Of a DNA stretch of 61,977 bases, positions 7,860-56,752 are shown piece by piece; the stretch's first letter is position 1; each line of letters starts with the position of its first letter. A model generated the notes under the pieces. The model made no database searches. It was not told the origin of the DNA and saw nothing but the letters and a program-made list of their open reading frames with translations. The position numbers and the translations under genes were made by a program. Source of the DNA: Erysipelothrix anatis (lineage in GTDB: Bacteria; Bacillota_I; Bacilli_A; Erysipelotrichales; Erysipelotrichaceae); NCBI RefSeq assembly GCF_009828745.1, contig NZ_WTSX01000014.1:1-61977 (forward strand), in the 5' to 3' direction.

Positions 7860-8303
7860 ATGGATAAATTACTATTGAGTTTACACGACGTATCACTTGT
7901 ACTATTACCAACAATTGGAGTGGTTTGCTTAGTCTTGCTTGCGATGATTCTTTATCGAATCTATAAAATCGTACAAGAACTTCCAAAGACAGTCACAAAA
8001 ATCGATGGGGTAATAGATGCTACACAAAGATCAGTAGACAAATTGGATGCACCACTTACTACCTTAAACAACGTTTCGAATACAGTAGACCTTGTAAATG
8101 ATTCTGCTGTAGGATTTGCAAGTAAGGCAGTTAATATGTCAATCAAGCATTCCGATGCAATCGTTGAATGGTTCCGAAACAACCAGCAACAACGAACCCA
8201 TCGAAAAGAAGAAAAAGAAGTACGAAAAGAAGCACGTGAACATGCAGAAGCAGAAGCCCGAAAAGCTGAAGAGAAAGTAGAGGATTTTGGAATTTATGAC
8301 TAA
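7860..8303 (+). CDS. DUF948 (YtxG-like) membrane-anchored coiled-coil protein
   Basis: The 147-residue product has one N-terminal transmembrane helix (about residues 13-36). A DUF948 region follows with repeated hydrophobic heptads (ELPKTVTKIDGVIDATQRSVDKL) and a Glu/Lys/Arg-rich helical C-terminus, probably facing the cytoplasm. The order murC–DUF948–helical protein–ccpA mirrors Bacillus murC–ytxG–ytxH–ytxJ–aroA–ccpA, which supports the assignment. It is a general-stress-type protein of unknown biochemistry. It overlaps the next gene by 8 nt. Confidence 0.8.
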   Translation: MDKLLLSLHDVSLVLLPTIGVVCLVLLAMILYRIYKIVQELPKTVTKIDGVIDATQRSVDKLDAPLTTLNNVSNTVDLVNDSAVGFASKAVNMSIKHSDAIVEWFRNNQQQRTHRKEEKEVRKEAREHAEAEARKAEEKVEDFGIYD

Positions 8304-8982
8304 ATATGATGATATACTCAACGAACTCGTTTATAAAATAGACGATGTGGTGTACGATTTCTATAGTAAAAGTAATGAACTCATTGCAACCAAAGCCAAT
8401 CAAGATCGCCTCTTCACATTCCGTGATAAAACAATCAATACCATAAATGATATGAATGTTCGTTCACTGGAAATGATTTCTGGATTTAGAAGTGAAAGTC
8501 TTGTACGTGAACGTACTGAAAATCTTTATGACAAGAATATTCAACTTATCCAATCTGCGTATGATGTCATTGAAGCATCACCAAACAAAAGTGAATTCTT
8601 AGAAGATGTTCAAAATTTTGCAAGTGGTGTCTATACTCAAGCTAAAGATATGATGAAACGTGTCGAAGATTCAGGTACAATCGATCGCATTACTGATTCT
8701 GCACAAGTAGGGTTCAAAAAAGTACAAGATAGTTGGGATGAATTTGCAACAAATCCAACTGTTGTTAAGAATGTAGAAACACTGAAAGAAAAAACGAAGG
8801 AAGCTGTCGATTATGGTGCTAAAGTCATCCAAGATACATCTAAATTCGTTGCTGATAAAGTGTCTGAAACAAAAGAAAAACCATCAGATCCATCCTCAAT
8901 TTACGTATCATCAACTGATGAACTACGTGATGTCATTGAAGATGTGACTGAACACACAACTGAACAGAAGGATGATAATTAA
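8296..8982 (+). CDS. Helical YtxH-position protein, unknown function
   Basis: The 228-residue product is almost entirely predicted amphipathic helix, with repeated segments of the type FASGVYTQAKDMMKRVEDSG and VETLKEKTKEAVDYGAKVI, and a Glu/Thr-rich tail. These resemble YtxH/apolipoprotein-like 11-mer helices. No transmembrane segment is seen. I chose ATG 8296 because AGAGGA at 8279-8284 is well placed for it and too close to the TTG at 8287. It lies between a DUF948 protein and ccpA, where Bacillus has ytxH. Association with the membrane or with the DUF948 protein is inference. Confidence 0.7.
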   Translation: MTKYDDILNELVYKIDDVVYDFYSKSNELIATKANQDRLFTFRDKTINTINDMNVRSLEMISGFRSESLVRERTENLYDKNIQLIQSAYDVIEASPNKSEFLEDVQNFASGVYTQAKDMMKRVEDSGTIDRITDSAQVGFKKVQDSWDEFATNPTVVKNVETLKEKTKEAVDYGAKVIQDTSKFVADKVSETKEKPSDPSSIYVSSTDELRDVIEDVTEHTTEQKDDN

Positions 8983-8983
8983 T

Positions 8984-9979
8984 ATGAAACGCGTCACTAT
9001 ATACGACGTAGCAAAAGAAGCGGGAGTATCCCTTGCTACAGTTTCACGGGTTATAAACGGACTTGAAATTGTTCGTGAAGAAACACGTGTTAAAGTCGAA
9101 TCCGCTATTGATAAGCTTGGTTACAAGCCCAATGCTATCGCTCAAGGTTTAGCACTTCAAAAAACAACAACAATTGCGTTACTTGTTCCAGAAGCGAGCT
9201 TTGCATATACTGGCCAAATCATTAACGGTTTGATCGATGTAGCGAAAATTTACAAGTATAGCATTATGTTACACACGATGACAGAAGGAATTGTTGATAT
9301 CAAAGATGTTATTGATGATGTTATTAAGTCCCGTGTCGACGGTGTTATTATTTATAACGACAAATTAATGGATAATGAATTGGAAGAGTTAAGTAAATAT
9401 CAATTCCCAATCGTTATTATTGGAAATAAGATGTCAGATAAACAAATTTCATCAGTATATGTTGATATTGAAAAAGCAGTTTATGAACTCACAATGAACC
9501 AACTTGCTAAGAATAAAGACCGTAAAGTTGGTATTATCCAAGATCGCAAGAATGACTTTACAACAAATCAAATGATTCAAGGTGTACGTCGTGCTTACGC
9601 TGAAATGGGACGTGATTCAGAAGGGTATATCGAAATTCCATCGGAATACCGTCGCTCGTATGATTATTTCTTAGATCACATCGAGGATATGGACTATGAC
9701 TTCTTAATTGCTAACCGTGACTCACAAGCCATCTCGGCCATGAATGCTGCACATGAACGTGGAATGTCAATTCCAGATGATTTAGAAATTGTCTGCTTAA
9801 TTGACTCGAAATACAATTCAATGGTACGTCCTCGTCTCTCAAGCTTTGCAATCCCTGCATATGACTTGGGTGCGGTATCAATGCGCGTCCTTACCAAAAT
9901 GCTTAATGACGATGAGGTGGAAGATAAAGAAATTGAACTCAGTTACCTTTATACACCACGTCAATCAACACGAAACTAA
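8984..9979 (+). CDS. ccpA: LacI-family regulator, probable catabolite control protein A
   Basis: The 331-residue DNA-binding protein starts MKRVTIYDVAKEAGVSLATVSRVINGLEIVREETR, the LacI/CcpA helix-turn-helix plus hinge helix (KPNAIAQGLAL). A periplasmic-binding-protein-like core follows. In Bacillota, CcpA with HPr-Ser-P represses or activates carbon genes through cre sites. The start at 8984 has AAGGAT at 8968-8973. The tryptophan-poor core and its position after the murC–DUF948 genes match Bacillus ccpA. Another LacI-type regulator cannot be fully excluded, but synteny makes CcpA the best call. Confidence 0.87.
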   Translation: MKRVTIYDVAKEAGVSLATVSRVINGLEIVREETRVKVESAIDKLGYKPNAIAQGLALQKTTTIALLVPEASFAYTGQIINGLIDVAKIYKYSIMLHTMTEGIVDIKDVIDDVIKSRVDGVIIYNDKLMDNELEELSKYQFPIVIIGNKMSDKQISSVYVDIEKAVYELTMNQLAKNKDRKVGIIQDRKNDFTTNQMIQGVRRAYAEMGRDSEGYIEIPSEYRRSYDYFLDHIEDMDYDFLIANRDSQAISAMNAAHERGMSIPDDLEIVCLIDSKYNSMVRPRLSSFAIPAYDLGAVSMRVLTKMLNDDEVEDKEIELSYLYTPRQSTRN

Positions 9980-9999
9980 AGAGAGCAATCTCTTTTTTT
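9979..9999 (+). terminator. Terminator of the trmB–ccpA operon
   Basis: A 6-bp stem (AAGAGA 9979-9984 with TCTCTT 9989-9994), GCAA loop and 7-T run start at the ccpA stop codon. Confidence 0.75.
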
Positions 10000-10083
10000 C
10001 TTATCTTCACAAATACTTAATATTTTAATGAAAGGTATGAATAATGTGATTTATATAGAAAATTAAATATTTGTGTTTATCTA

Positions 10084-10112
10084 TTGACAGAAACTATCGA
10101 AAGAGGTAATAT
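10084..10112 (+). promoter_or_regulatory. Strong sigma-A promoter of the Nudix leader
   Basis: A consensus TTGACA at 10084-10089 and TAATAT at 10107-10112 are 17 bp apart. Transcription should start near 10119, giving an mRNA leader of about 120 nt. Confidence 0.85.
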
Positions 10113-44421: not shown

Positions 44422-47400
44422 ATGTTTAAGTCAAAGAAAAGACTTGGACGCGTTTTTAGTGTCGTAGCATTAGCGTTTGTGCTCACACTGTCTAGCTTAA
44501 CAGTTAGTGCAGCAACCGAAACCAAACCTAAGACAAATGATGAACTCGTTCAAGCAATTATCAATGACAAAGATACAAAAGTGTCATTGACGAATACTTC
44601 AGAGGGGTATAAAGCTGAAGTAACAATGGATTTTCATATTAAAGATGCGGATTGGGTTACCATTCAGAGCCTAACAGATCCTTTGGAGCTGAAGTTTCCA
44701 GATTCAATGAAACTCTCACCCAAGCAAGATTTAAAATTCGCGAATACTGATAAAAACTTTAAAGATAATGTGTACCAGTCTTTAGAAGATACCCGCATTA
44801 AAACAGAAGACAATACGATAGCAATCGATTTTAAAGAACTAACGCAACGTCCACAAGACTTTAGACTTGTTTACGAACTTGATATTGTTGCAGATAGTGC
44901 ACTGATTGATGCCATCGATCTCAAGGTCTTTCCGGTAGTTGCACCACTTATCAAAGATACTGTAGCGTTTATTAATAAAGTAGAAGATGAGCGTGTGGCA
45001 GCACTTAAAACAGCAGAAGATACAGAATCAGAAGCTGCAACGAATAACACTTCAGAAGTTGGAAATTCAGATACAGATAAGCCAGAAACGGTAAAACCCG
45101 ATACTGAAACACCAAATGGTGATACTGAAACATCAGAAGAAACCAATGAAACTGTAAAAACACAGGTATCTGGAGATATCAACATTGAACTCGTTGGTAA
45201 TCCACAAGCACGTGTTAAACATGCAAATAAAGAGATTAATGATTCGTACCCTATCGCGATGACTAACTACTCAGAAACAGCCACTAACTATTCGATTGAT
45301 TTATTTACCGACGAGAACCCAACACACCTAGGCGTATCCTATGTCGTGAAACTCGATGATCAATCCCTTGCTCTTATCACTGAAGAGAATAAAGCGAATG
45401 CCCTAGATTTCCAATATAAGAAAAATGGCGTTCAAGTTCCGTTTAAATATGAATATGCTTTCCCAGAAGTAATCAAATTTTATGACCAAACAGGGGATAG
45501 CATCTTAGCAAGTTCGAAACTTTCCGATTACAGCACTTCTTCATTTAAACGTGTTGCTCCAGGAACCAATGAGGGTCCCTTTAAACTAGATGTTGAAGAA
45601 ATCAAGATTGATTCAAATGTTGAAGGCGCAGCCGTTCAATATAAGTTCCAAGACTTTATTTCAACACAAATTAGCAACTATATTAATGAAGAACTTCAAG
45701 CAGGGAAGTCATTGACTGAAATCAAAGCGGCTTTAAAACAAGGTGTCGTTGTAACAGATGATCAATATAAAGTTAACGATTACCAATACCAACAAAATAC
45801 CAAAGCAAGTTTTGAGAAGCTTAATGTGTATCCACTTGAAATCAAGAATATCTTAAATTCCCAAAAAGATATTAAGAAAGACCTACCAGTTACACCAGTT
45901 GGTGGTGTCGATAACACTCTTGAAGCCAAATCATTTGAACAAGTTCCTAACGGCTTTGAATTGATTTGGGAAGGTGTTGCTAATACTAACCGTAAATCAA
46001 CATTAAATACTTTAGACTTATCATTTGATGCACCAACCGTTGTAAAAACATCAGGTTTAGCGAATTGGAATATCAAAACAGTCGTCAACGTATCGTACTA
46101 TGATGTTCTTAATGATGGAACATTGGTTCCTAATACAACTTTAGCGCCAGAACGTATCGAAAAAATTAATGCTGCAACTGATAAAATTGAACCTATTTCA
46201 ATTGATACACATGGTCAAAATGTCGCAATCAAATATGATGTGACACAGACATTCATAAACAACGATCTCAACCTTGAAATCGAAGGAAATCAAGTGGGTC
46301 GTTTGAGTGCCGCTCTGAACAAAAATCAATTTAATAAATCGGTTGAGAATAAAAAAGAGTTCCCACGTTCCATTGTAATTAATGGCGTTAAAGGAGCTGA
46401 AGGTGCACCAACAAGCTTACATTGGGATGTTGTCTTCAATAACAACAAATTAATTCGTCAACCAAATGATGGATTCAATTTCTATCTTGATGCAAGTAAA
46501 GTTAAAGCATATCGTTTCAATGGATCGGGTGACAGTTATAGTGAAATTAATGTTGCCTACAACCAAATGAAAATTAAAACCACAATCTTTGTTGACGGTA
46601 AAGAAATAAGTAAAGATGGCCGTTTCACAGTCGAATGGAATGCTGATTTCACAGAAGCAAAAATTCGATTAAAACCTGGTCTTGCAGAACCACTCAATAA
46701 AGAAGTGAAATTCCAATTTAAATACGAAATTGATGTTGTTGAACCATATGTTGAAGGTAAAGCAATTCGTGATGAATTACTAACATCATCAAAACTTAAA
46801 TTTGAAGGAAATGCCAATGTTAAGTCGTTTACCAATGGTATTGAAATTGAACCAACAAAACCTACAGAAGAAGAATTAAAAGCACAACAAGCACTTAACT
46901 ACCTTGTACTATTAGACAAGCGTCCTGTGATGATTGACTACCGTACAAAGGAAGTAATTTGGGGTGTTGCGATTAATACCGTAACTGCAAATCGTATTGG
47001 TTTAGAAGGTTTTACCTATTCAGATACTTTCAAATCTCCAGGTATGTTCTTTGAACCAATGGATGAAAACAACCCAATCTTAATGTTTAAGATTGATCCA
47101 ACCAAACAACCTCAAACATCACATGGTGAATATTCCAAATTTATTTCAGAAGTTAAGAAAATAATGGATAATGCCGATATCTATTCTGATGAAATTGCAA
47201 ATGCAATTGTTGGGGCAGGTGGATTGCTAGGCCAGAAACTTGATGATGAAGCGGAAGATTCAAAAACTTATGGTGACATTGTCAGTTATGTAAATCCAAG
47301 TGAAATTGCATACCTCAAAGATGATGCATCGACATTAACCAATGAAAAATTCGCGTTGAGTCAACCGAAAGAATATCCAGGTTATGTCGATAAACTTAAA

Positions 47401-50400
47401 GGTAAAGTTGTGAATGGTGAACCTGGTGATCCATTTGTTTCGACACCTACAAAATCAGAACTCTTGAAGGGTGTTGATTTGCGCCTTGACTTTATCGATT
47501 CCAATAAAGCAATCGGTCCTGCCGGTGGCGAAGATGACAATGCTTACTATATTCTTTATAAAACTAAATTATCCAGTGATACGCCAATGGAAAGTGTTAA
47601 AAATGCAGGCGCATTAACATTTGCAACATGGGTCATTGGTGAAGGAAACACAATCAGTTGGACGGGTGGCGACATTGAAGCATCGAAAGATCTTGGTGAA
47701 GTTGCGAAGTATAACACCGTTCCTAAAAAAGAAGGAACCGTCAAAGTCATTAACGATGCGGCAACAAACCGTCAACGTCTTGCAGCAAACTGGAATATCA
47801 CATTTAACTATGATGTTGATACACGACGTGTTGCTGAAGTACCAATGGTTGTCGTTGATACCATCGATAAAAACCGTGACCTAGGTGGTTTCACGTTAGG
47901 AAATAAACACCTCGTTCCTCAAGAAATTGAAGCAATTACACTCGCAAAATTCGAAGTTGATAAGGATGGAAATCTAAAACCAACGAATGAAACAGTAGAG
48001 GTAACTAAAGCATCAGGCGAGCTTACTGTTGATGAAACTGCAGATAAAATTACATATACGATTAAGAAACATCTCGATCCTAAGTACGTATACCGTTTCG
48101 AAATTAACACACTCATTGAGAGTCATGAAGCTGTAATTCCAGTTGCAACAGAAGAAGTATCGAATACTGTGGCGACTGGAGAGTTCGAAAACACCGTAAC
48201 GTATACTTGTGGACACGAACCAAACCAAGTCGATTTACCAGAACCTGGTGTAGCAACAGCTAAAGCAAACTTAGGAAATCGCAATCGTGTTCAAAAAACA
48301 GGATCACTTGTCTCGGGTACATATCCGGGATCACGTCAACAAGTTCAATGGACATTGACCTTGAATGAAACGTATGAAAATATGTCAAATATCGTGATTA
48401 AGGATACTCTTGAAAGCAAACATACATTCAAATTTATTAAAGACCACAACGACTTGGAACAAAGTGGAACTGGAAATGCAGTCTTAGATCGCTTCTCAAT
48501 TCAAGAACTTGTCGGATCAAGCTGGAGAACAATTCCAAGTGACAAATATGTTCTAACGAATGCTGATGGAGATGCAAACAAACCATTGGATAACTGGACA
48601 ACGGGAGAAAGTGGATTCATTCTTCGTTTTACCGAAGCAATGTCTAACCCAATCCGTATTCAATATGCAACCTTTGGTCATGTTGTTGATAACAAAGAAA
48701 TTCCATTAAAAAACCACGCTGACTTGTCATATACAACAGATGCAGCACAAGCAATTGACCACAAAGTAACAGCCGCAGTTAACTTTAAAGTTAATGACGA
48801 AGCTGGTGGTTATGAAGATGAACGTTTTGATATTGGTCTGACAGTGCGCTATAACGATAACCAACCAGCTTTAACAACTGACTTGGATAAAGGAGAGCGT
48901 ATTACTGGAAACAATGTTGAGCAATCAATTATTGTACTTTACCGTTACCAGAATAAATTCGTCGAAAACAACCATGTTTACCGTATTGGTCAACCAGACG
49001 CAAATGGTTACCTAGAATTCAAGAATATTGAAAAAGGAAACTATATCGTTAAACAATTTAATGTAGCAGATGGTTATTCTGTACCGAACTCATTAGGTTA
49101 TGTTGAATCTGGACGAAATACTACAAAAGATAAATCTGTAGAAATCAATGCGAGCCAACTTGCATCTGGAAATCTTGTAACACTTGATGTTAAAGATCCA
49201 AGTAAACGCATGTTTGACTTCTTTAAAGCAGATCCTGTTGTAACAAAAGTTGATTACGCAATCTACAATACAACACCAGTCTTCGAAGTGAAAACCGATG
49301 GAAAACTCGTAACAGCTACAGGAGCAGATGCAACTGAAAAATTGAGCGATATTAATCTAGATATTACCAATGAAGCTAAACAAAAAGCAGCATTTAGAAG
49401 TAGTGATCAAGGGACCTTTAAAGTGGGAACAGTTAATCCCGAAGACGATCGAATCGACTTTGGTAAATTTGCAATTACACAACCAACTCAAACCCTAAAT
49501 GGTTACCTTCGAAATACAGAAACGGTTAACCATACACTGGCACGAAATCCAAATGGTACAGTTGATGCAACAACAATCAATGCAACGTTCAATAACTATA
49601 AGACAAGTGCAACGATGAAAGTTGTTCATCGTGGAACCGAAAATCTTATTGCAAATAGTGCTTACACACTTGAGCAGTACGACGGAACAGCATGGGTCCC
49701 TTATGAAGCAGCATCTACCGGAAAAGGTGATGCCAATGCATATACACTTACAAATGGAAAACTAACGGTTCACAATCTTGATGCCGGCCGTTACCGTTTC
49801 AATCAAACTGCAGTTGGTGATGGATATCTAATTAATCCAGAACCTTTAGAATTCTATGTATACGGTCCAACACAAGAAACAGCAACTGATGCATACGAAG
49901 GAAAACCTGAAGTCATGCAACTTACATTCGACAACATTAAAGCGTCTGTAAACTTCTCAAATGTCATTGGTACGGAGACAATCTCTGGATCCACATTTGA
50001 TATTAAAGATGAAAGCGACACGGTTGTTGATACCTTCACAATTACGGATAAAGATGCAGGTTACACACGCAATCTCGCTCCTGGAACGTATTCATTAGTC
50101 CAAACAGGAACAAGTGATAATCGTCCACTTAATGCTTCACCAATGACTTTCGAAATTGAAAGTGATGAAGGAATCTTTGAAGGTGAAACAGAAGCAAGTA
50201 CCCGTACCATTGTGTTCGAAAACCATCTTGGAAGTTTCGAGTTTGCGACACATACACCATCACTCGCAACATTTGATATTGAGAGCTATGCTCTAGATTA
50301 CAATGCAACAGCAGTTGCAACACCAAGCCAAGTTAATCTTGGATATGGCAATTACGAAGTGAAAGATGTCCAAATTAACAATGCATGGATTCACGTACCA

Positions 50401-52371
50401 ACCGATTACACATTTGTAGTTCCACAAAGCTATACGGATCCAGCTACCTTGAAACAAACAGTTCATGTTTATGGTACACAAGTAAATATGGATTATGTAA
50501 ACCGTGATGGGGATGTCTTAACTGATACAACACCGCTTACTGGTGGTACATTCTCCTTAACTGAAGAAACATCAAATACACTTGTTGCAAGCGTTGATGA
50601 AAGCAATCCAATCCGCAACATTGGACCTGGAACCTATGCTTTCGCACAAACAAATGCACCACAAGGTTATGGACTCAACACCGCAATTCTTGCGAACATC
50701 GTTGTACCACAAACCTTAAGTCAAAATGATGTTGTGATCGATACAGTTAACCACACAATTGAAAACTATAACTTAGAACCAATTACTTACTACAACTATC
50801 GTGGAAAAGTTGGGTTAACGAAAACCTCAGCAGAAACAAATACTCCGCTTGCAGGTGTTGTTTTCAATCTCTATCACGAAGGTGTAAAACTTGATGGTGA
50901 GTATGTTACAGATACTGATGGTAAAATTACGATTGACCGTCTAGCACCAGGTAACTACTACTTTGAAGAGATTAAAGGGGATGGCAATCACATTGCGAAC
51001 GCAAGTAAAACTCCATTTACGATTGCAGCTTCCAATGAAAATGCTTATGCACCACAAACAGTAGCAGTTTCTAACTACTACGCTGATGTCGTGTTTAAGA
51101 ATACAAACCCAGACCATGATGTTATCTATACGGATGGTACATTCACACTCTTATCAAATGAGAATGGTACATGGACACCCGTTAATGGTTTCATTGACTT
51201 TAAAGTTACACCGCAGACAGATACTTTCAAAATCTTTGGTGTCAAAGCAGGTTCATACAAACTCGTACAAACAAAAGCACCGACACATACTGTCCGCAAT
51301 ACATTTGAATACTTGTTTGATATTCCAGACTATACACCTGAAGAAATAGAGGGTCGCTTGACGTTAGAACTTGATGATTACATTAACTATCAAGCAACAT
51401 TAAAAGTTGATCTTATCGATCCAAACGGTGCGTTTACGAATAACGTTGATGCAACATTTAACGATGCGTCAGGCCGTAAAGATCCAATGCTCCAAGTAGG
51501 TTCAGTCCTCACACGCACTGGATTGGGATCAGGAAACTATAGCATCACAACAAATAAAGCCGATCAAGCAATTGTTGTTGATGAAACATTAGATGTTGTA
51601 GTTCCAGAATCTGCATTGAACGACGAAGGCTTAGCGCTTACTAAAACACTTCGCGTTACTTATGCTCGAAACACATTGAAACTCGTTGATGGTCGTACCT
51701 CAAATGCTTTAGGCTCAGGTATCTTCACAATTAACGATGTTGAATACAAAGTAAGCACAGCGGGTGTTATCAAACTTGATGCACTCACACCAGGAACATA
51801 CTCATATGTTCAAACACAAGCAGCTGATGGCTATGTATTAAATACACTTAACCAAGGTAGCTTTGAGGTTTTCGGTAAATTGAGTGACTTTGAACCACAA
51901 TTTGTAAACCGTGAAGGTTTCCCATATGTTGACCTTCAAACAACTACATTCAATAATTACCGCGTTAATGTCATTATTAATAAGGTTGATGATAAAGATC
52001 GCCCACTTCAAGGTGTTGAATTTACATTAACTCATGACGCAGACAACACTGTAGTAACTACAAACGCACAAGGTCAAGCAATAATTAATGACCGTGCTCC
52101 TGGAGCTTATGTATTGAAAGAAACAAAAGCACTTCCAGGCTATGAGGGAATTACGGATGCTCGTGAATTCATTATTGAATCTGAGTACGCTGGCGAACCT
52201 CAAGATATTATCTTTAAAGTAACAAATAAAGAAATTATTGATCCTGTTAAACCAGTTGCCCCACCCTTACCTTCAACAGGTATGGCTGCAAGTACACCAT
52301 GGTTTGCATTCGGAATCGTCGCACTTGGTGGCATCTTCATTGTCGCTTCGCGTCGTCGTAAGCATCAATAG
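44422..52371 (+). CDS. Giant LPxTG-anchored adhesin with CnaB/SpaA-like repeats
   Basis: The 2649-residue surface protein has a signal peptide (residues 1-31), an acidic Thr/Glu linker (about 187-252), and a long middle region of beta-rich adhesin-type modules to about 1460. At least nine CnaB (SpaA-like prealbumin) repeats run from about 1460 to 2600. Repeat cores read, for example, KGNYIVKQFNVADGYSVPNS, PGTYSLVQTGT, PGNYYFEEIKGDG, PGTYSYVQTQAADGYVLN and PGAYVLKETKALPGYEG. Between repeats lie Asn-ending strands (FNNYK, SNYYA, INYQA) of the kind that can form Lys-Asn isopeptide bonds. It ends with LPSTG (2616-2620), a membrane helix and RRRKHQ, so sortase would link it to peptidoglycan. AAGGAGG precedes the ATG. 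Collagen or fibronectin binding is plausible by family. Confidence 0.92.
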   Translation: MFKSKKRLGRVFSVVALAFVLTLSSLTVSAATETKPKTNDELVQAIINDKDTKVSLTNTSEGYKAEVTMDFHIKDADWVTIQSLTDPLELKFPDSMKLSPKQDLKFANTDKNFKDNVYQSLEDTRIKTEDNTIAIDFKELTQRPQDFRLVYELDIVADSALIDAIDLKVFPVVAPLIKDTVAFINKVEDERVAALKTAEDTESEAATNNTSEVGNSDTDKPETVKPDTETPNGDTETSEETNETVKTQVSGDINIELVGNPQARVKHANKEINDSYPIAMTNYSETATNYSIDLFTDENPTHLGVSYVVKLDDQSLALITEENKANALDFQYKKNGVQVPFKYEYAFPEVIKFYDQTGDSILASSKLSDYSTSSFKRVAPGTNEGPFKLDVEEIKIDSNVEGAAVQYKFQDFISTQISNYINEELQAGKSLTEIKAALKQGVVVTDDQYKVNDYQYQQNTKASFEKLNVYPLEIKNILNSQKDIKKDLPVTPVGGVDNTLEAKSFEQVPNGFELIWEGVANTNRKSTLNTLDLSFDAPTVVKTSGLANWNIKTVVNVSYYDVLNDGTLVPNTTLAPERIEKINAATDKIEPISIDTHGQNVAIKYDVTQTFINNDLNLEIEGNQVGRLSAALNKNQFNKSVENKKEFPRSIVINGVKGAEGAPTSLHWDVVFNNNKLIRQPNDGFNFYLDASKVKAYRFNGSGDSYSEINVAYNQMKIKTTIFVDGKEISKDGRFTVEWNADFTEAKIRLKPGLAEPLNKEVKFQFKYEIDVVEPYVEGKAIRDELLTSSKLKFEGNANVKSFTNGIEIEPTKPTEEELKAQQALNYLVLLDKRPVMIDYRTKEVIWGVAINTVTANRIGLEGFTYSDTFKSPGMFFEPMDENNPILMFKIDPTKQPQTSHGEYSKFISEVKKIMDNADIYSDEIANAIVGAGGLLGQKLDDEAEDSKTYGDIVSYVNPSEIAYLKDDASTLTNEKFALSQPKEYPGYVDKLKGKVVNGEPGDPFVSTPTKSELLKGVDLRLDFIDSNKAIGPAGGEDDNAYYILYKTKLSSDTPMESVKNAGALTFATWVIGEGNTISWTGGDIEASKDLGEVAKYNTVPKKEGTVKVINDAATNRQRLAANWNITFNYDVDTRRVAEVPMVVVDTIDKNRDLGGFTLGNKHLVPQEIEAITLAKFEVDKDGNLKPTNETVEVTKASGELTVDETADKITYTIKKHLDPKYVYRFEINTLIESHEAVIPVATEEVSNTVATGEFENTVTYTCGHEPNQVDLPEPGVATAKANLGNRNRVQKTGSLVSGTYPGSRQQVQWTLTLNETYENMSNIVIKDTLESKHTFKFIKDHNDLEQSGTGNAVLDRFSIQELVGSSWRTIPSDKYVLTNADGDANKPLDNWTTGESGFILRFTEAMSNPIRIQYATFGHVVDNKEIPLKNHADLSYTTDAAQAIDHKVTAAVNFKVNDEAGGYEDERFDIGLTVRYNDNQPALTTDLDKGERITGNNVEQSIIVLYRYQNKFVENNHVYRIGQPDANGYLEFKNIEKGNYIVKQFNVADGYSVPNSLGYVESGRNTTKDKSVEINASQLASGNLVTLDVKDPSKRMFDFFKADPVVTKVDYAIYNTTPVFEVKTDGKLVTATGADATEKLSDINLDITNEAKQKAAFRSSDQGTFKVGTVNPEDDRIDFGKFAITQPTQTLNGYLRNTETVNHTLARNPNGTVDATTINATFNNYKTSATMKVVHRGTENLIANSAYTLEQYDGTAWVPYEAASTGKGDANAYTLTNGKLTVHNLDAGRYRFNQTAVGDGYLINPEPLEFYVYGPTQETATDAYEGKPEVMQLTFDNIKASVNFSNVIGTETISGSTFDIKDESDTVVDTFTITDKDAGYTRNLAPGTYSLVQTGTSDNRPLNASPMTFEIESDEGIFEGETEASTRTIVFENHLGSFEFATHTPSLATFDIESYALDYNATAVATPSQVNLGYGNYEVKDVQINNAWIHVPTDYTFVVPQSYTDPATLKQTVHVYGTQVNMDYVNRDGDVLTDTTPLTGGTFSLTEETSNTLVASVDESNPIRNIGPGTYAFAQTNAPQGYGLNTAILANIVVPQTLSQNDVVIDTVNHTIENYNLEPITYYNYRGKVGLTKTSAETNTPLAGVVFNLYHEGVKLDGEYVTDTDGKITIDRLAPGNYYFEEIKGDGNHIANASKTPFTIAASNENAYAPQTVAVSNYYADVVFKNTNPDHDVIYTDGTFTLLSNENGTWTPVNGFIDFKVTPQTDTFKIFGVKAGSYKLVQTKAPTHTVRNTFEYLFDIPDYTPEEIEGRLTLELDDYINYQATLKVDLIDPNGAFTNNVDATFNDASGRKDPMLQVGSVLTRTGLGSGNYSITTNKADQAIVVDETLDVVVPESALNDEGLALTKTLRVTYARNTLKLVDGRTSNALGSGIFTINDVEYKVSTAGVIKLDALTPGTYSYVQTQAADGYVLNTLNQGSFEVFGKLSDFEPQFVNREGFPYVDLQTTTFNNYRVNVIINKVDDKDRPLQGVEFTLTHDADNTVVTTNAQGQAIINDRAPGAYVLKETKALPGYEGITDAREFIIESEYAGEPQDIIFKVTNKEIIDPVKPVAPPLPSTGMAASTPWFAFGIVALGGIFIVASRRRKHQ

Positions 52372-53286: not shown

Positions 53287-55107
53287 ATGAAAAATTCACA
53301 CAAAAAAAACCTTAAAAAAAGCCTGAAAATATTTTTAGCGCTGACCATTATGGTATCAATGGGATCTTGGTCTTTATTTGCACTTGATGGTTCAAATGAC
53401 GAAGACAAAGGGACGGTTGAAAAAGATAATGCAATTGAGCCCCCGGTCCAAAGCCAAGATGCGCTCGAGAATTCTATGCTCGAAGTAATTGAGTTGGAAC
53501 CAATGGCTCTTGAAGAACCGAAGGAAGCATGGGGTGGTGATACCGAAGGGGTCGAAGCCGCAATGCAAGCTCGGGCTGCATCAACATATGCGAAATCGGG
53601 GTTTATTCAGTTCAATCTAGCCATTGATAAAAATATCAATCTCTATGATACTGCAACGGATTCAAGCCCGTATCGCTACTTGTCTGGACACGTTGCATAC
53701 TCAGGCGTTGTGCCATTTTATGATGCGACAGACGACCGTTATAAAATAACAATTAGTGGCATCGAAGGATGGGTTCCTAAATCTGCCTTCAAAGAGTTTA
53801 AAGTATCGGAAGCTAAAGGAGCCAACTATTACTCTGTCCGTAATGGGAATTTATACAATAATATCAGTATGGGTGCTGCAACTAGCAACTATGGTACAAT
53901 TCTCAACGGACCTGCGCCATCTTATCTAAAGGAAGATGTACGTTACTTCTCAGCAGATGGTCACTACTTCTACACTAATGTTAATGATTTGATTTTGGAT
54001 TATCGCTCTGGAGGGAACTACAGCGCAGTTAACAAATCAACGCCATTCTATAATTACTACCAGTTTTTATCATTCCGTTCAGAATCATCGATAACTGCGG
54101 ATCAACTCAATGCATTTCTTAGAGATCGTAAAGGATTCACGAGTGCACCTACAAACTGGGATTCAATGACAAGTACTCAATCTAAATTATATGGATCAGA
54201 ATCTGCGTTCGTTGACTTGGGTCGAAAATACGGAACAAACCCACTGATGAACTTTGGAGTATCAATTAATGAGACTGGTTGGGGCCGCAGTTGGCTTGCC
54301 GTAGATCGTAATAATGTATTTGGACATAATGCAACAGATAGTAGTCCTTGGTTAGCAAACAGCTACGATAGTGTACCCACAGCCGTTGATATTCACTACA
54401 CAATGTTCTTAAACTGGTTATATATGGATTTCGGTGAATCAAGTTTCTACTACGGTGGGTATCTTGGAGATAAACAAACCGGTATTAACGTCAAATACTC
54501 AAGTGATCCTTTCTGGGGGCAAAAAGCAGCTGCATTCTCCTATGAAATAGATCGTAACTATGGAAACCAAGATTATGGTCGATACTCAATCGGAGAATCA
54601 ACGGCACAAGTTGTTCCTATTCGAAAAGAGCCAAGCACAGGCTCACAACAAGTTATGAAAACAGAAATCGTTGGGCAAAAAGTCATGATTCTAGATACAG
54701 TCCAAGGAGAAAGTGTGAACGGAAATGCGACATGGTACAAGATTGCTGCAGATTCGTTACTCAATAGTGATCGCGATCGGTTAGCATGGATAACAGGTGG
54801 TGCAAACCGTACTGCAACCTATGACCGTAGTAATAACTACCTCTACATTCACTCAAGCAATGTACGCAAAGTATTTGATGGTAAAGGATCGCCAGTTACA
54901 CCTGAACCGGAATTTCCAAGAGGGGATATAAATGGCGACGGAAAAGTTTCGGTTGTTGATTTTGCGATGATGAAGAGTCACCTTGAAGGTGTTCGGACTC
55001 TAACAGGAGATCAATTAAAGCGAGCTGACCTAAATAATGATGGAAAAGTAACTGTCATTGACTTTGCAATGCTTAAAAGTCATTTGGAAGGCATACGACC
55101 ACTTTAG
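53287..55107 (+). CDS. Secreted GH73 N-acetylglucosaminidase with SH3-like domains and a C-terminal dockerin
   Basis: The 606-residue secreted protein would cut glycan strands of peptidoglycan. It has a signal peptide (about 1-33), an acidic spacer, an SH3/GW-like domain (about 100-175) ending in IEGWVPKSAF, and a GH73 catalytic domain (about 255-440). The latter contains INETGWGRSW (Glu329 as the likely acid) and RNNVFGHNA. A second SH3-like domain follows (about 435-530). The C-terminal 60 residues are a type I dockerin: DINGDGKVSVVDFAMMKSHL and DLNNDGKVTVIDFAMLKSHL, two duplicated EF-hand-like calcium loops with F-helices. Dockerins bind cohesins. TTAGGGGG precedes the ATG. The next gene, 12 bp on, is a membrane-anchored candidate partner. 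Confidence 0.92.
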   Translation: MKNSHKKNLKKSLKIFLALTIMVSMGSWSLFALDGSNDEDKGTVEKDNAIEPPVQSQDALENSMLEVIELEPMALEEPKEAWGGDTEGVEAAMQARAASTYAKSGFIQFNLAIDKNINLYDTATDSSPYRYLSGHVAYSGVVPFYDATDDRYKITISGIEGWVPKSAFKEFKVSEAKGANYYSVRNGNLYNNISMGAATSNYGTILNGPAPSYLKEDVRYFSADGHYFYTNVNDLILDYRSGGNYSAVNKSTPFYNYYQFLSFRSESSITADQLNAFLRDRKGFTSAPTNWDSMTSTQSKLYGSESAFVDLGRKYGTNPLMNFGVSINETGWGRSWLAVDRNNVFGHNATDSSPWLANSYDSVPTAVDIHYTMFLNWLYMDFGESSFYYGGYLGDKQTGINVKYSSDPFWGQKAAAFSYEIDRNYGNQDYGRYSIGESTAQVVPIRKEPSTGSQQVMKTEIVGQKVMILDTVQGESVNGNATWYKIAADSLLNSDRDRLAWITGGANRTATYDRSNNYLYIHSSNVRKVFDGKGSPVTPEPEFPRGDINGDGKVSVVDFAMMKSHLEGVRTLTGDQLKRADLNNDGKVTVIDFAMLKSHLEGIRPL

Positions 55108-55119
55108 GAGGAGATTTTT

Positions 55120-56649
55120 ATGAAGAATTTTAAAAAAATAATGGCACTTTCTTTAGTGTTTTTAATGATGTCTGTGTTACCAATATTTGCACTTTCCGGA
55201 TCTGCGTACGTAAGTGGACCTGGGTCAGTGAATGTGGGGCAATCAATCACTGTAAGTGTAACGGTCAATGCTGATGTAGATGCATCATTTGATCTTGTTG
55301 TTAGCGCAAGCGGAGCTGCAAGCGGTTCTACAAATTGGGCACCAGGATCACGAGGAGAAAGTAGAAGTTTTACTTTCCCAACACATGCAGCAGGGACTGC
55401 TACTATTTCTGTATCGGGTGAAGGTGCTGACTGGGTCAATTTTAATACCTTCTCTGTTTCGGGAGGAACCTCAGTTAATGTGGTTAACCCAAACACTGGT
55501 GGCGGAAACACTGGGGGTGGAAACACTGGTGGTGGAAACACTGGTGGTGGAAACACTGGTGGTGGAAACACTGGTGGTGGAAACACAGGTGGCGGAAACA
55601 CAGGTGGATCATCAAACAATGGTGGTTCATCAATTCCAGATGAAGATAAAACACCAGAACAGCTAGCTGAAGAAAAAGCTGCGGAAGAAGCAAAAGCAAA
55701 AGAAGATGCGCAAAAGAATCCATTGATTAGTTCATTCAACATCATTTCTAATAATGAAAAGAAATTTGGTGAGACGCTAAGCGATATTCCAACAGCAGTT
55801 GATACATGGGAATACGAATATAAGTTACCGAAACGAATTGATAGTGTACTTTTAGACGTTAAGAGTGTCAGTGAAACAACGACGCTTACATTTGATAAAG
55901 AACAAAAATTTGCGGAAGGTGAAAAAACTAAAGAAGTTGTGATTCGTGCGGTTGATGGCGAAATCACTCAAGAGTATAAATTAAAGCTGACACTCGACGA
56001 TAGCGAACCTGTTAAAGTCAATGTTGGCGATAAGACTGCTACACTCTATGATGATGAAGCACTTGATAAATTGATGACAGAGTATGGGTTTACAAGAGAA
56101 GTAATCGATCAAAATGGAACGGCATCATTTGCATATCAGAAAGATGCGATGAAACTACAACTCTTAACCGATGAAAAGCAAAATGCACAATGGCTAGCAT
56201 TGGATAAAACAAATGCTGCGAAAACTGTAGTGTATCCGGTACTTCAAGATGAAGGAAAAATGTATATCTTGACGGCTCCAAATCCAGAAATGGCGAAGCA
56301 AACGTATGGTGGCGTCGCAGTGACCCCAACGGATTTAGATTTCAAAAAATTCGAAGGTGTTGACAGCTCGTTGAAATTTGAAAAACAAGTGTCGGTTTGG
56401 AATTTAGAAGGTGAATCAGGCATGATCGTGAACGGTATGCAAACTACGGACTCTGAACCACGACTTTACCATATCGATAACACACAAAAACTAACACCTG
56501 CATTCGTTGCATTTGATGTAGCGTCATCAAAAACGACAAAAGTTTGGGCAATTACCGCAACAGTTGTGGCAGTTGCACTTGCAGCAGGATTTGGTGCTTA
56601 TTTATACGTAAATCGCGCACCCAAAAAACGTAAAGATGTAAACATTTAA
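55120..56649 (+). CDS. Membrane-anchored surface protein with Ig/cohesin-like domain and GGGNT linker
   Basis: The 509-residue product has a signal peptide (about 1-26) and an N-terminal Ig-like or cohesin-like beta domain (about 27-122; GSAYVSGPGSVNVGQSITVS, then TATISVSGEGAD). Then come a GGGNT repeat linker (about 126-162), an Ala/Glu-rich helix, and a cadherin-like beta-sandwich (about 205-290; FNIISNNEKKF and VIRAVDGEITQEYKLKL). A mixed region precedes a C-terminal membrane helix (about 478-500) with a basic tail (RAPKKRKD). It is thus tethered to the membrane and faces outward. The SD AGGAGG lies in the 12-bp gap after the dockerin glucosaminidase. Binding of that dockerin is inferred from context, not from a certain cohesin match. 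Confidence 0.8.
   Translation: MKNFKKIMALSLVFLMMSVLPIFALSGSAYVSGPGSVNVGQSITVSVTVNADVDASFDLVVSASGAASGSTNWAPGSRGESRSFTFPTHAAGTATISVSGEGADWVNFNTFSVSGGTSVNVVNPNTGGGNTGGGNTGGGNTGGGNTGGGNTGGGNTGGGNTGGSSNNGGSSIPDEDKTPEQLAEEKAAEEAKAKEDAQKNPLISSFNIISNNEKKFGETLSDIPTAVDTWEYEYKLPKRIDSVLLDVKSVSETTTLTFDKEQKFAEGEKTKEVVIRAVDGEITQEYKLKLTLDDSEPVKVNVGDKTATLYDDEALDKLMTEYGFTREVIDQNGTASFAYQKDAMKLQLLTDEKQNAQWLALDKTNAAKTVVYPVLQDEGKMYILTAPNPEMAKQTYGGVAVTPTDLDFKKFEGVDSSLKFEKQVSVWNLEGESGMIVNGMQTTDSEPRLYHIDNTQKLTPAFVAFDVASSKTTKVWAITATVVAVALAAGFGAYLYVNRAPKKRKDVNI
55498..55602 (+). repeat. Seven tandem 15-bp units encoding GGGNT
   Basis: Seven direct copies of a 15-bp unit (GGTGGTGGAAACACT and close variants), each adding five residues in frame. 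The middle copies are identical. It encodes the flexible linker between the N-terminal domain and the rest of the surface protein. Copy number can change by slippage without breaking the frame. Confidence 0.95.
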
Positions 56650-56655
56650 AAATAG

Positions 56656-56684
56656 AAACTCGAGTGAAAATCTCGAGTTTTTTT
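56656..56684 (+). terminator. Terminator of the glucosaminidase operon
   Basis: AAACTCGAG (56656-56664) pairs with CTCGAGTTT (56672-56680), followed by a T-run. Confidence 0.92.
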
Positions 56685-56752
56685 ATGCGAAAATTATCGG
56701 AAGATACGCTATCGGTGGCCAAATATGGTAGAATAATACAAGAGGTGCGTGC

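Follow-up and report, generated by a model that had tools for sequence, protein, structure and literature searches.

Most of what is known of cohesin-dockerin pairs comes from complexes that degrade fibre. Non-cellulosomal cohesins and dockerins were the subject of an earlier survey (Peer et al. 2009, cited in PMC2930009), and in Clostridium perfringens, five single-cohesin proteins and five dockerin-bearing glycoside hydrolases form multi-toxin complexes (PMC12997984). LytB of Streptococcus pneumoniae attaches via choline-binding repeats (PMC5817068). We analyzed a window of Erysipelothrix anatis DNA (the whole stretch of 61,977 nucleotides from contig NZ_WTSX01000014.1), in which two adjacent genes appear to combine elements of these systems (Table 1). 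The best reading of the locus, to which we assign a probability of about 0.82 based on sequence comparisons and predicted structures, is that the two genes would encode a dedicated, specificity-matched tether that holds one autolysin at the membrane.

The locus resembles the cellulosome in the sequence and fold of its type I dockerin, in the match of its relatives' cohesins to scaffoldin cohesins, and in the surface-anchored display of an enzyme. It differs from the cellulosome in having a single, N-terminal cohesin-like domain, no CBM in gene 2, and a cell-wall glucosaminidase as the predicted cargo in place of plant-fibre enzymes; on these grounds, a cellulosome or plant-fibre system was rejected. 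The C. perfringens protein NagJ/GH84C and its relatives likewise have non-cellulosomal single cohesins, and the solved ones (2w1n, 2jh2, and 2vo8) are among the folds closest to the domain in the window. The cohesins of the C. perfringens type sit on large glycoside hydrolases, whereas the cohesin-like domain in the window sits on a membrane anchor without an enzyme domain, and the locus consists of one autolysin and one membrane receptor encoded by neighbouring genes. The catalytic region and the Glu motif are common to gene 1 and LytB, a GH73 cell-separation glucosaminidase, but gene 1 has a dockerin where LytB has its choline-binding repeats. The original prediction had regarded the locus as a non-cellulosomal use of cohesin-dockerin logic. 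The comparative evidence supports this description, but such use is not a novelty in itself, going by the survey of Peer et al. (2009) as it is cited and by the C. perfringens enzymes (PMC12997984). In the literature covered, which was mostly outside subscription papers, we found no autolysin described as bearing a dockerin and having an anchored cohesin of its own, no exchangeable cassette of the kind described below, and no account of Erysipelothrix dockerins or prophage dockerins. The kind of interaction is already known; its use as an autolysin tether and the exchangeable cassette look new.

Table 1. Features of the two-gene locus in the window, with the evidence on which each was placed
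Feature	Position	Strand	Basis or remark
Gene 1 (606 aa), secreted glucosaminidase with GH73, SH3_3, and a dockerin at the C-terminus	53287..55107	+	ORF; Pfam; closest solved structure is a LytB-type GH73
GH73 domain (PF01832), residues 307-417	54205..54537	+	Pfam; Glu column alignment
SH3_3 domain, residues 443-502	54613..54792	+	Pfam
Exchange cassette: dockerin, gene junction, signal peptide, beta domain, and linker	54911..55621	+	~50% identity to sister species inside ~90% flanks
Type I dockerin made up of two symmetric repeats (DINGDGKVSVVDFAMMKSHLEG / DLNNDGKVTVIDFAMLKSHLEG)	54919..55104	+	PF00404; fold match 5nrm_B
Ribosome-binding site of gene 2 (AGGAGG), overlapping the gene 1 stop	55106..55111	+	Sequence
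Gene 2, membrane-anchored putative receptor, 509 aa	55120..56649	+	ORF; orthologues
Signal peptide of gene 2 (approximate)	55120..55197	+	Sequence; AF2 helix
N-terminal cohesin-like beta domain, residues 27-122	55198..55485	+	Cohesin HMM, hhalign, AF2, fold matches
Flexible linker, ~7 x GGGNT then GSSNNGGSS	55486..55638	+	Sequence
Cadherin-like beta-sandwich region	55723..55995	+	Homology to relatives; without a Pfam call in the window protein
C-terminal transmembrane segment, then basic cytoplasmic tail KKRKDVNI	56539..56610	+	Sequence
Stem then T run 3' of gene 2, possible terminator of the two-gene unit	56656..56687	+	Sequence; stem listing gave the - strand only

The GH73 domain of gene 1 was assigned by Pfam with an E-value of 3.7e-12 (47.4 bits against a cut-off of 30.2). 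The nearest solved relatives of the protein were PDB 4q2w and 7pj3, which bear the depositor name putative endo-beta-N-acetylglucosaminidase and which we take to be S. pneumoniae LytB. Residues 215-429 of gene 1 aligned to the LytB-type catalytic region with an E-value of 4.9e-17; E329 aligned with the Glu of the LytB motif, and NETGWGRS in gene 1 matched ESNWGRS in LytB. The SH3_3 domain of gene 1 is an addition to the domains listed in the original prediction.

The dockerin of gene 1 matched PF00404 at residues 546-600 with an E-value of 7.5e-17 and 61.7 bits (cut-off 22.9), and this was the top-scoring dockerin match in its genome. The predicted fold of the dockerin matched that of 5nrm_B with a Z-score of 11.5 and an rmsd of 1.5 over 64 residues. 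In 51 dockerins of such pairs, positions 10, 11, 13, 14, 17, 18, and 21 were concerted between the two repeats, with observed between-repeat identities of 0.76-0.94 against expected values of 0.17-0.45. Most of these positions are ones through which the type I dockerins of cellulosomes are known to recognise their partners. Their concertedness suggests that these dockerins are functional binders under selection.

Gene 2, which begins 12 bases after gene 1, encodes a single-pass membrane protein with a further domain between the Cadherin-like region and the transmembrane segment; PF12733 (Cadherin-like) was matched in 50 of the 62 relatives of gene 2 that were scanned. Because the stem and T run lie directly after gene 2, the two genes probably form one operon. 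This architecture bears out the original prediction of a secreted GH73 enzyme that ends in a type I dockerin with two calcium loops, both of which were found as quoted, and of a membrane-tethered protein encoded 12 bp downstream, for which the signal peptide, about seven GGGNT repeats of the linker, and a C-terminal hydrophobic segment with KKRK were all seen.

The relationship of the beta domain to cohesins was found through intermediate relatives. The Pfam scan of the gene 2 protein gave no cohesin and only a weak BatD/DUF11 match, and the PDB sequence search with gene 2 gave matches to the low-complexity linker only. Among the 62 members of the gene 2 family that were scanned, 11 matched PF00963 (cohesin). 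A profile built from the cohesin-like relatives matched scaffoldin cohesins in the PDB, with a best E-value of 1.5e-7, and an HMM of these relatives matched the beta domain of the window with an E-value of 4.4e-6 when the database size was set to 1000. In profile-profile comparison with hhalign, the Erysipelothrix beta domains and the cohesin-like group gave 96.7% over 101 columns, whereas the controls, consisting of cadherin-like and reversed sequences, gave 0.1-0.4% against the same group. Judged from these comparisons, the beta domain of the window is cohesin-like and homologous to cohesins via intermediate relatives.

A structural model of the region was generated with AF2 from the sequences of the window and related loci, for which the natural in-frame read-through stretch (dockerin-TAG-gene 2) served as the input. 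The beta domain was predicted to be a beta sandwich with block-mean pLDDT values of mostly 81-92. It matched the C. perfringens GH84C cohesins 2w1n and 2jh2 with Z-scores of 11.4 and 11.2, respectively, over 101-102 residues, and the PKD domain 4xed, the top fold match, with a Z-score of 12.7 over 94 residues; therefore, the fold alone does not decide between a cohesin and a PKD domain. In the read-through fusion of the dockerin and gene 2, the individual domains were modelled well, and the pTM was 0.47 with no confident docked arrangement. The assignment to an Ig/cohesin type in the original prediction drew its support from the intermediates and from fold prediction, and not from a direct Pfam cohesin call. 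Structure prediction of the domain with the dockerin, which had been suggested there as a check, gave well-modelled domains but no confident docking.

In a rival explanation, the beta domain is an Ig/PKD-type module for another ligand, such as a wall polymer or a host component, the dockerin docks elsewhere, for example on cohesins encoded on contig C11, and the genes adjoin merely so as to be expressed together. The rank of 4xed and the Pfam result for the window protein are in keeping with this explanation, but some relatives of the anchored protein carry bona fide cohesins at the same position. The genomic evidence given below, which includes the exchange of the dockerin and the beta domain together inside otherwise conserved genes, also argues against it, and we consider it improbable.

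Gene 2 was present in 11 of the 13 Erysipelothrix genomes, and the two genomes without it were incomplete assemblies (88% and 84%). A dockerin was located directly upstream of gene 2 in all 11 genomes carrying it; the contig of G011 begins inside gene 1, and in G006 the frame encoding GH73 is broken into two parts, with the dockerin and the anchor intact. Relatives of gene 2 were widespread in the class. The immediately upstream gene encoded a C-terminal dockerin at 48 of 55 class-wide loci and at 13 of 13 further loci (61/68), and the intergenic gaps in the set of 55 loci ranged from -17 to +18 bp. A chance neighbourhood of a dockerin and an anchored gene was rejected in view of this class-wide adjacency, and the sequence record makes it very unlikely that the dockerin and gene 2 are paired by chance. 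Among 50 aligned upstream partners, Pfam assigned SH3_3 in 27 and GH73 in only 13, and a few had other domains (amidase, GH25, and subtilase). Despite the low number of GH73 calls, most of the partners look like wall hydrolases, because the E329 column was at least 90% conserved in their alignment.

The search of the genome for further dockerins, another check suggested at the outset, gave 8 matches in all, together with two Pfam cohesins, both on contig C11. The C11 genes are arranged as a relay, in which the gene for a large protein with a terminal dockerin is followed by one for an N-terminal cohesin and a C-terminal dockerin, and this in turn by one for an N-terminal cohesin and a terminal membrane segment. 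The order of a C-terminal dockerin followed by an N-terminal cohesin on the next gene was found at three places in the genome, and at two of these the cohesin is one recognised by Pfam. The other dockerins, where examined, lay on a GH31-type LPXTG protein and in prophages. The presence of two Pfam cohesins on C11 would give the gene 1 dockerin another possible partner, as the Ig/PKD explanation supposes, but these cohesins have their own dockerins directly upstream. Furthermore, in six congeners (G002, G004, G005, G006, G009, and G011), the gene 1-type dockerin was the sole dockerin over the threshold, and the Pfam cohesin search of the same genomes found none. Service of the C11 cohesins by the gene 1 dockerin is unlikely, given these six relatives.

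The window was about 90% identical to the corresponding region of Erysipelothrix aquatica (G007) over 16 kb, within which 100-base bins with less than 65% identity occurred only between 54951 and 55551. These bins cover the dockerin, the junction, the signal peptide, the beta domain, and the linker, and most of a 2649-aa LPXTG protein encoded in the same 16 kb stayed at 65% or higher. The same pattern was also observed for G009/G006, G038/G043, and G040/G045, so that the four comparisons represent three genera and two families. In the four comparisons, the flanks were 70-100% identical (mostly 80-90%), the dockerins 54-63%, and the beta domains 47-49%, and in each case the divergent segment started at the dockerin and ended in the linker. 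These results suggest that the cassette was swapped in at least four lineages. Exchangeable specificity cassettes of matched protein pairs, for example toxin-immunity pairs, have their partners encoded side by side and replaced together. The cassette resembles these in that two adjoining matched parts appear to be replaced jointly; it differs from them in reaching from the 3' end of gene 1 into the 5' end of gene 2, with the putative plug and socket in separate proteins.

The exchanged types were shared among genomes in both modules. G006, G007, and G010 had the same dockerin type (MM.IRRHIL) and the same beta type, and in the rest of the gene 2 protein, G007 was closest to the window species and G006 was closest to G009. 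In maximum-likelihood analyses, neither the dockerin tree nor the beta-domain tree rejected the other; both rejected the one obtained for the remainder of gene 2 (AU p values of 6e-4 and 5e-9, respectively), and the data for the rest of gene 2 rejected the dockerin and beta trees (p <1e-40). When close relatives were masked, the pair that was nearest by dockerin also ranked in the top three by beta domain for 37 of 58 pairs, against 3.1 expected. The partial Mantel correlation between the dockerin and the beta domain, given the rest of the protein, was 0.32 (0/2000 permutations). In 37 close comparisons, which were not all independent, the dockerin and beta distances were correlated with a rho of 0.92, and none of these comparisons had a change in the dockerin or the beta domain alone.

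Co-exchange alone could be explained by linkage, because the two modules adjoin on the DNA and one event moves both. Linkage leaves unexplained why, in four lineages, the cassette has its outer edges where the modules have theirs, and why the dockerin repeats are concerted. We consider it very improbable that the cassette reflects nothing more than the usual local recombination, or that exposed sequence of the linker type has drifted fast, without any matching function. The contiguity of the modules, by which any event may cover both, and the fast drift of signal peptides and linkers would fit this explanation. However, the cassette runs from the dockerin to the linker in all four lineages, its exchanged types recur across G006, G007, and G010 in both modules, and the dockerin is a conserved calcium-binding module whose repeats co-vary at the recognition positions; moreover, nothing else in the 16 kb, including most of the LPXTG protein, falls below 65%. 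Taken with the near-universal adjacency and the six genomes with a sole dockerin and no Pfam cohesin, the joint exchange of the modules supports the one-enzyme, one-receptor pair that had originally been proposed.

Prophages of the genus also carry dockerins, one kind being borne by the tail and another by a 104-aa protein with a membrane anchor. Two prophages each carried a frame of 856-861 residues with a partial dockerin together with a TM-dockerin, and the copy of this frame in the E. anatis genome was assigned by Pfam as a tail endopeptidase. The occurrence of both dockerins in the same two prophages would fit an explanation in which phages use the beta domain as a receptor and their attack drives the diversification of the cassette, with the prophage dockerins using and then occupying the host cohesin. 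We regard it as rather unlikely, as the tail match is a partial dockerin and the phage dockerin types are not cleanly matched to the host types. Such an explanation would add a selective force to the tether and would not replace it. It is unlikely that the polymorphic gene-junction cassette is kept diverse by phages whose tail dockerins would use the anchored cohesin as a receptor, with the membrane dockerin of a lysogen blocking superinfection.

In the tether reading that we prefer, the two-gene unit would produce a peptidoglycan glucosaminidase, secreted and of the LytB-like GH73 type, together with a receptor dedicated to it. Part of this model is visible in the sequences: the enzyme has a symmetric type I dockerin at its end; the putative receptor has a cohesin-like domain at its N-terminus, then a flexible linker of some length, and a membrane anchor at its C-terminus; and the genes are kept together across the bacterial class, with the modules inherited and exchanged as a matched pair. 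Binding of the dockerin to the beta domain is predicted to depend on calcium, and the enzyme would therefore be held at the outer face of the membrane with the wall within its reach, which would restrict the place of cutting. By analogy with LytB, it would probably have a role in cell separation. The dockerin at the end of gene 1 lies beside the beta domain at the start of gene 2, an arrangement in which a single recombination could swap the whole specificity without a mismatch.

The co-exchanged cassette supplies natural sets of matched and mismatched pairs, by which the rules of specificity become directly testable, and protein engineering may gain orthogonal pairs from it. A further testable question is why a tether that holds an autolysin at the membrane should have to alter its specificity. 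In Erysipelothrix and across a class of Bacillota, the cohesin-dockerin interaction would, on this evidence, have a housekeeping use, the tethering of a cell-wall hydrolase.

On contig C11 of the E. anatis genome (about 206000–219000; loci L032 and L033), a dockerin–cohesin relay of three proteins was observed, in which the cohesin start of the next gene twice lay directly downstream of the dockerin end of the preceding gene. The relay ended in a cohesin protein anchored to the membrane, in which five matches to cadherin-like domains were found. At locus L031 (12046–19233), GH31 and F5/8 type C occurred in an LPXTG-type protein of 2395 aa that also had an internal dockerin, and a weak cohesin match was found 3′ of it.

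Closely upstream of the glucosaminidase–anchored protein pair, the window encodes an LPXTG surface protein of 2649 aa (44422–52371) with seven SpaA (prealbumin-like) domain matches. In G006, another Erysipelothrix genome carrying the pair, the dockerin and the anchored protein were intact despite the GH73 gene being spread over two frames (L022, reverse strand, 8205–10093), which reflects either real inactivation or a sequencing error.

At four loci, Erysipelothrix prophages encoded a small protein of 102–119 aa with just two parts, a membrane segment at the N-terminus and a dockerin; in three of these, repeat 1 was similar to host type A dockerins (KSH motif). Two prophages, both also carrying the membrane dockerin, had a partial dockerin in an open frame of 856–861 residues, the E. 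anatis copy of which (857 aa) matched Prophage_tail endopeptidase (Pfam). The prophage dockerins may serve in receptor use and superinfection exclusion.

Coordinates of dockerin-containing prophage features
Feature	Location	Strand
Frame with partial dockerin	L028:4686-7259	-
Frame with partial dockerin	IMG/VR record G566:3985-4119 (L186)	
Membrane segment + dockerin	L029:5655-5969	-
Membrane segment + dockerin	L030:5180-5494	-
Membrane segment + dockerin	L124:5138-5497	+
Membrane segment + dockerin	L131:5001-5309	+
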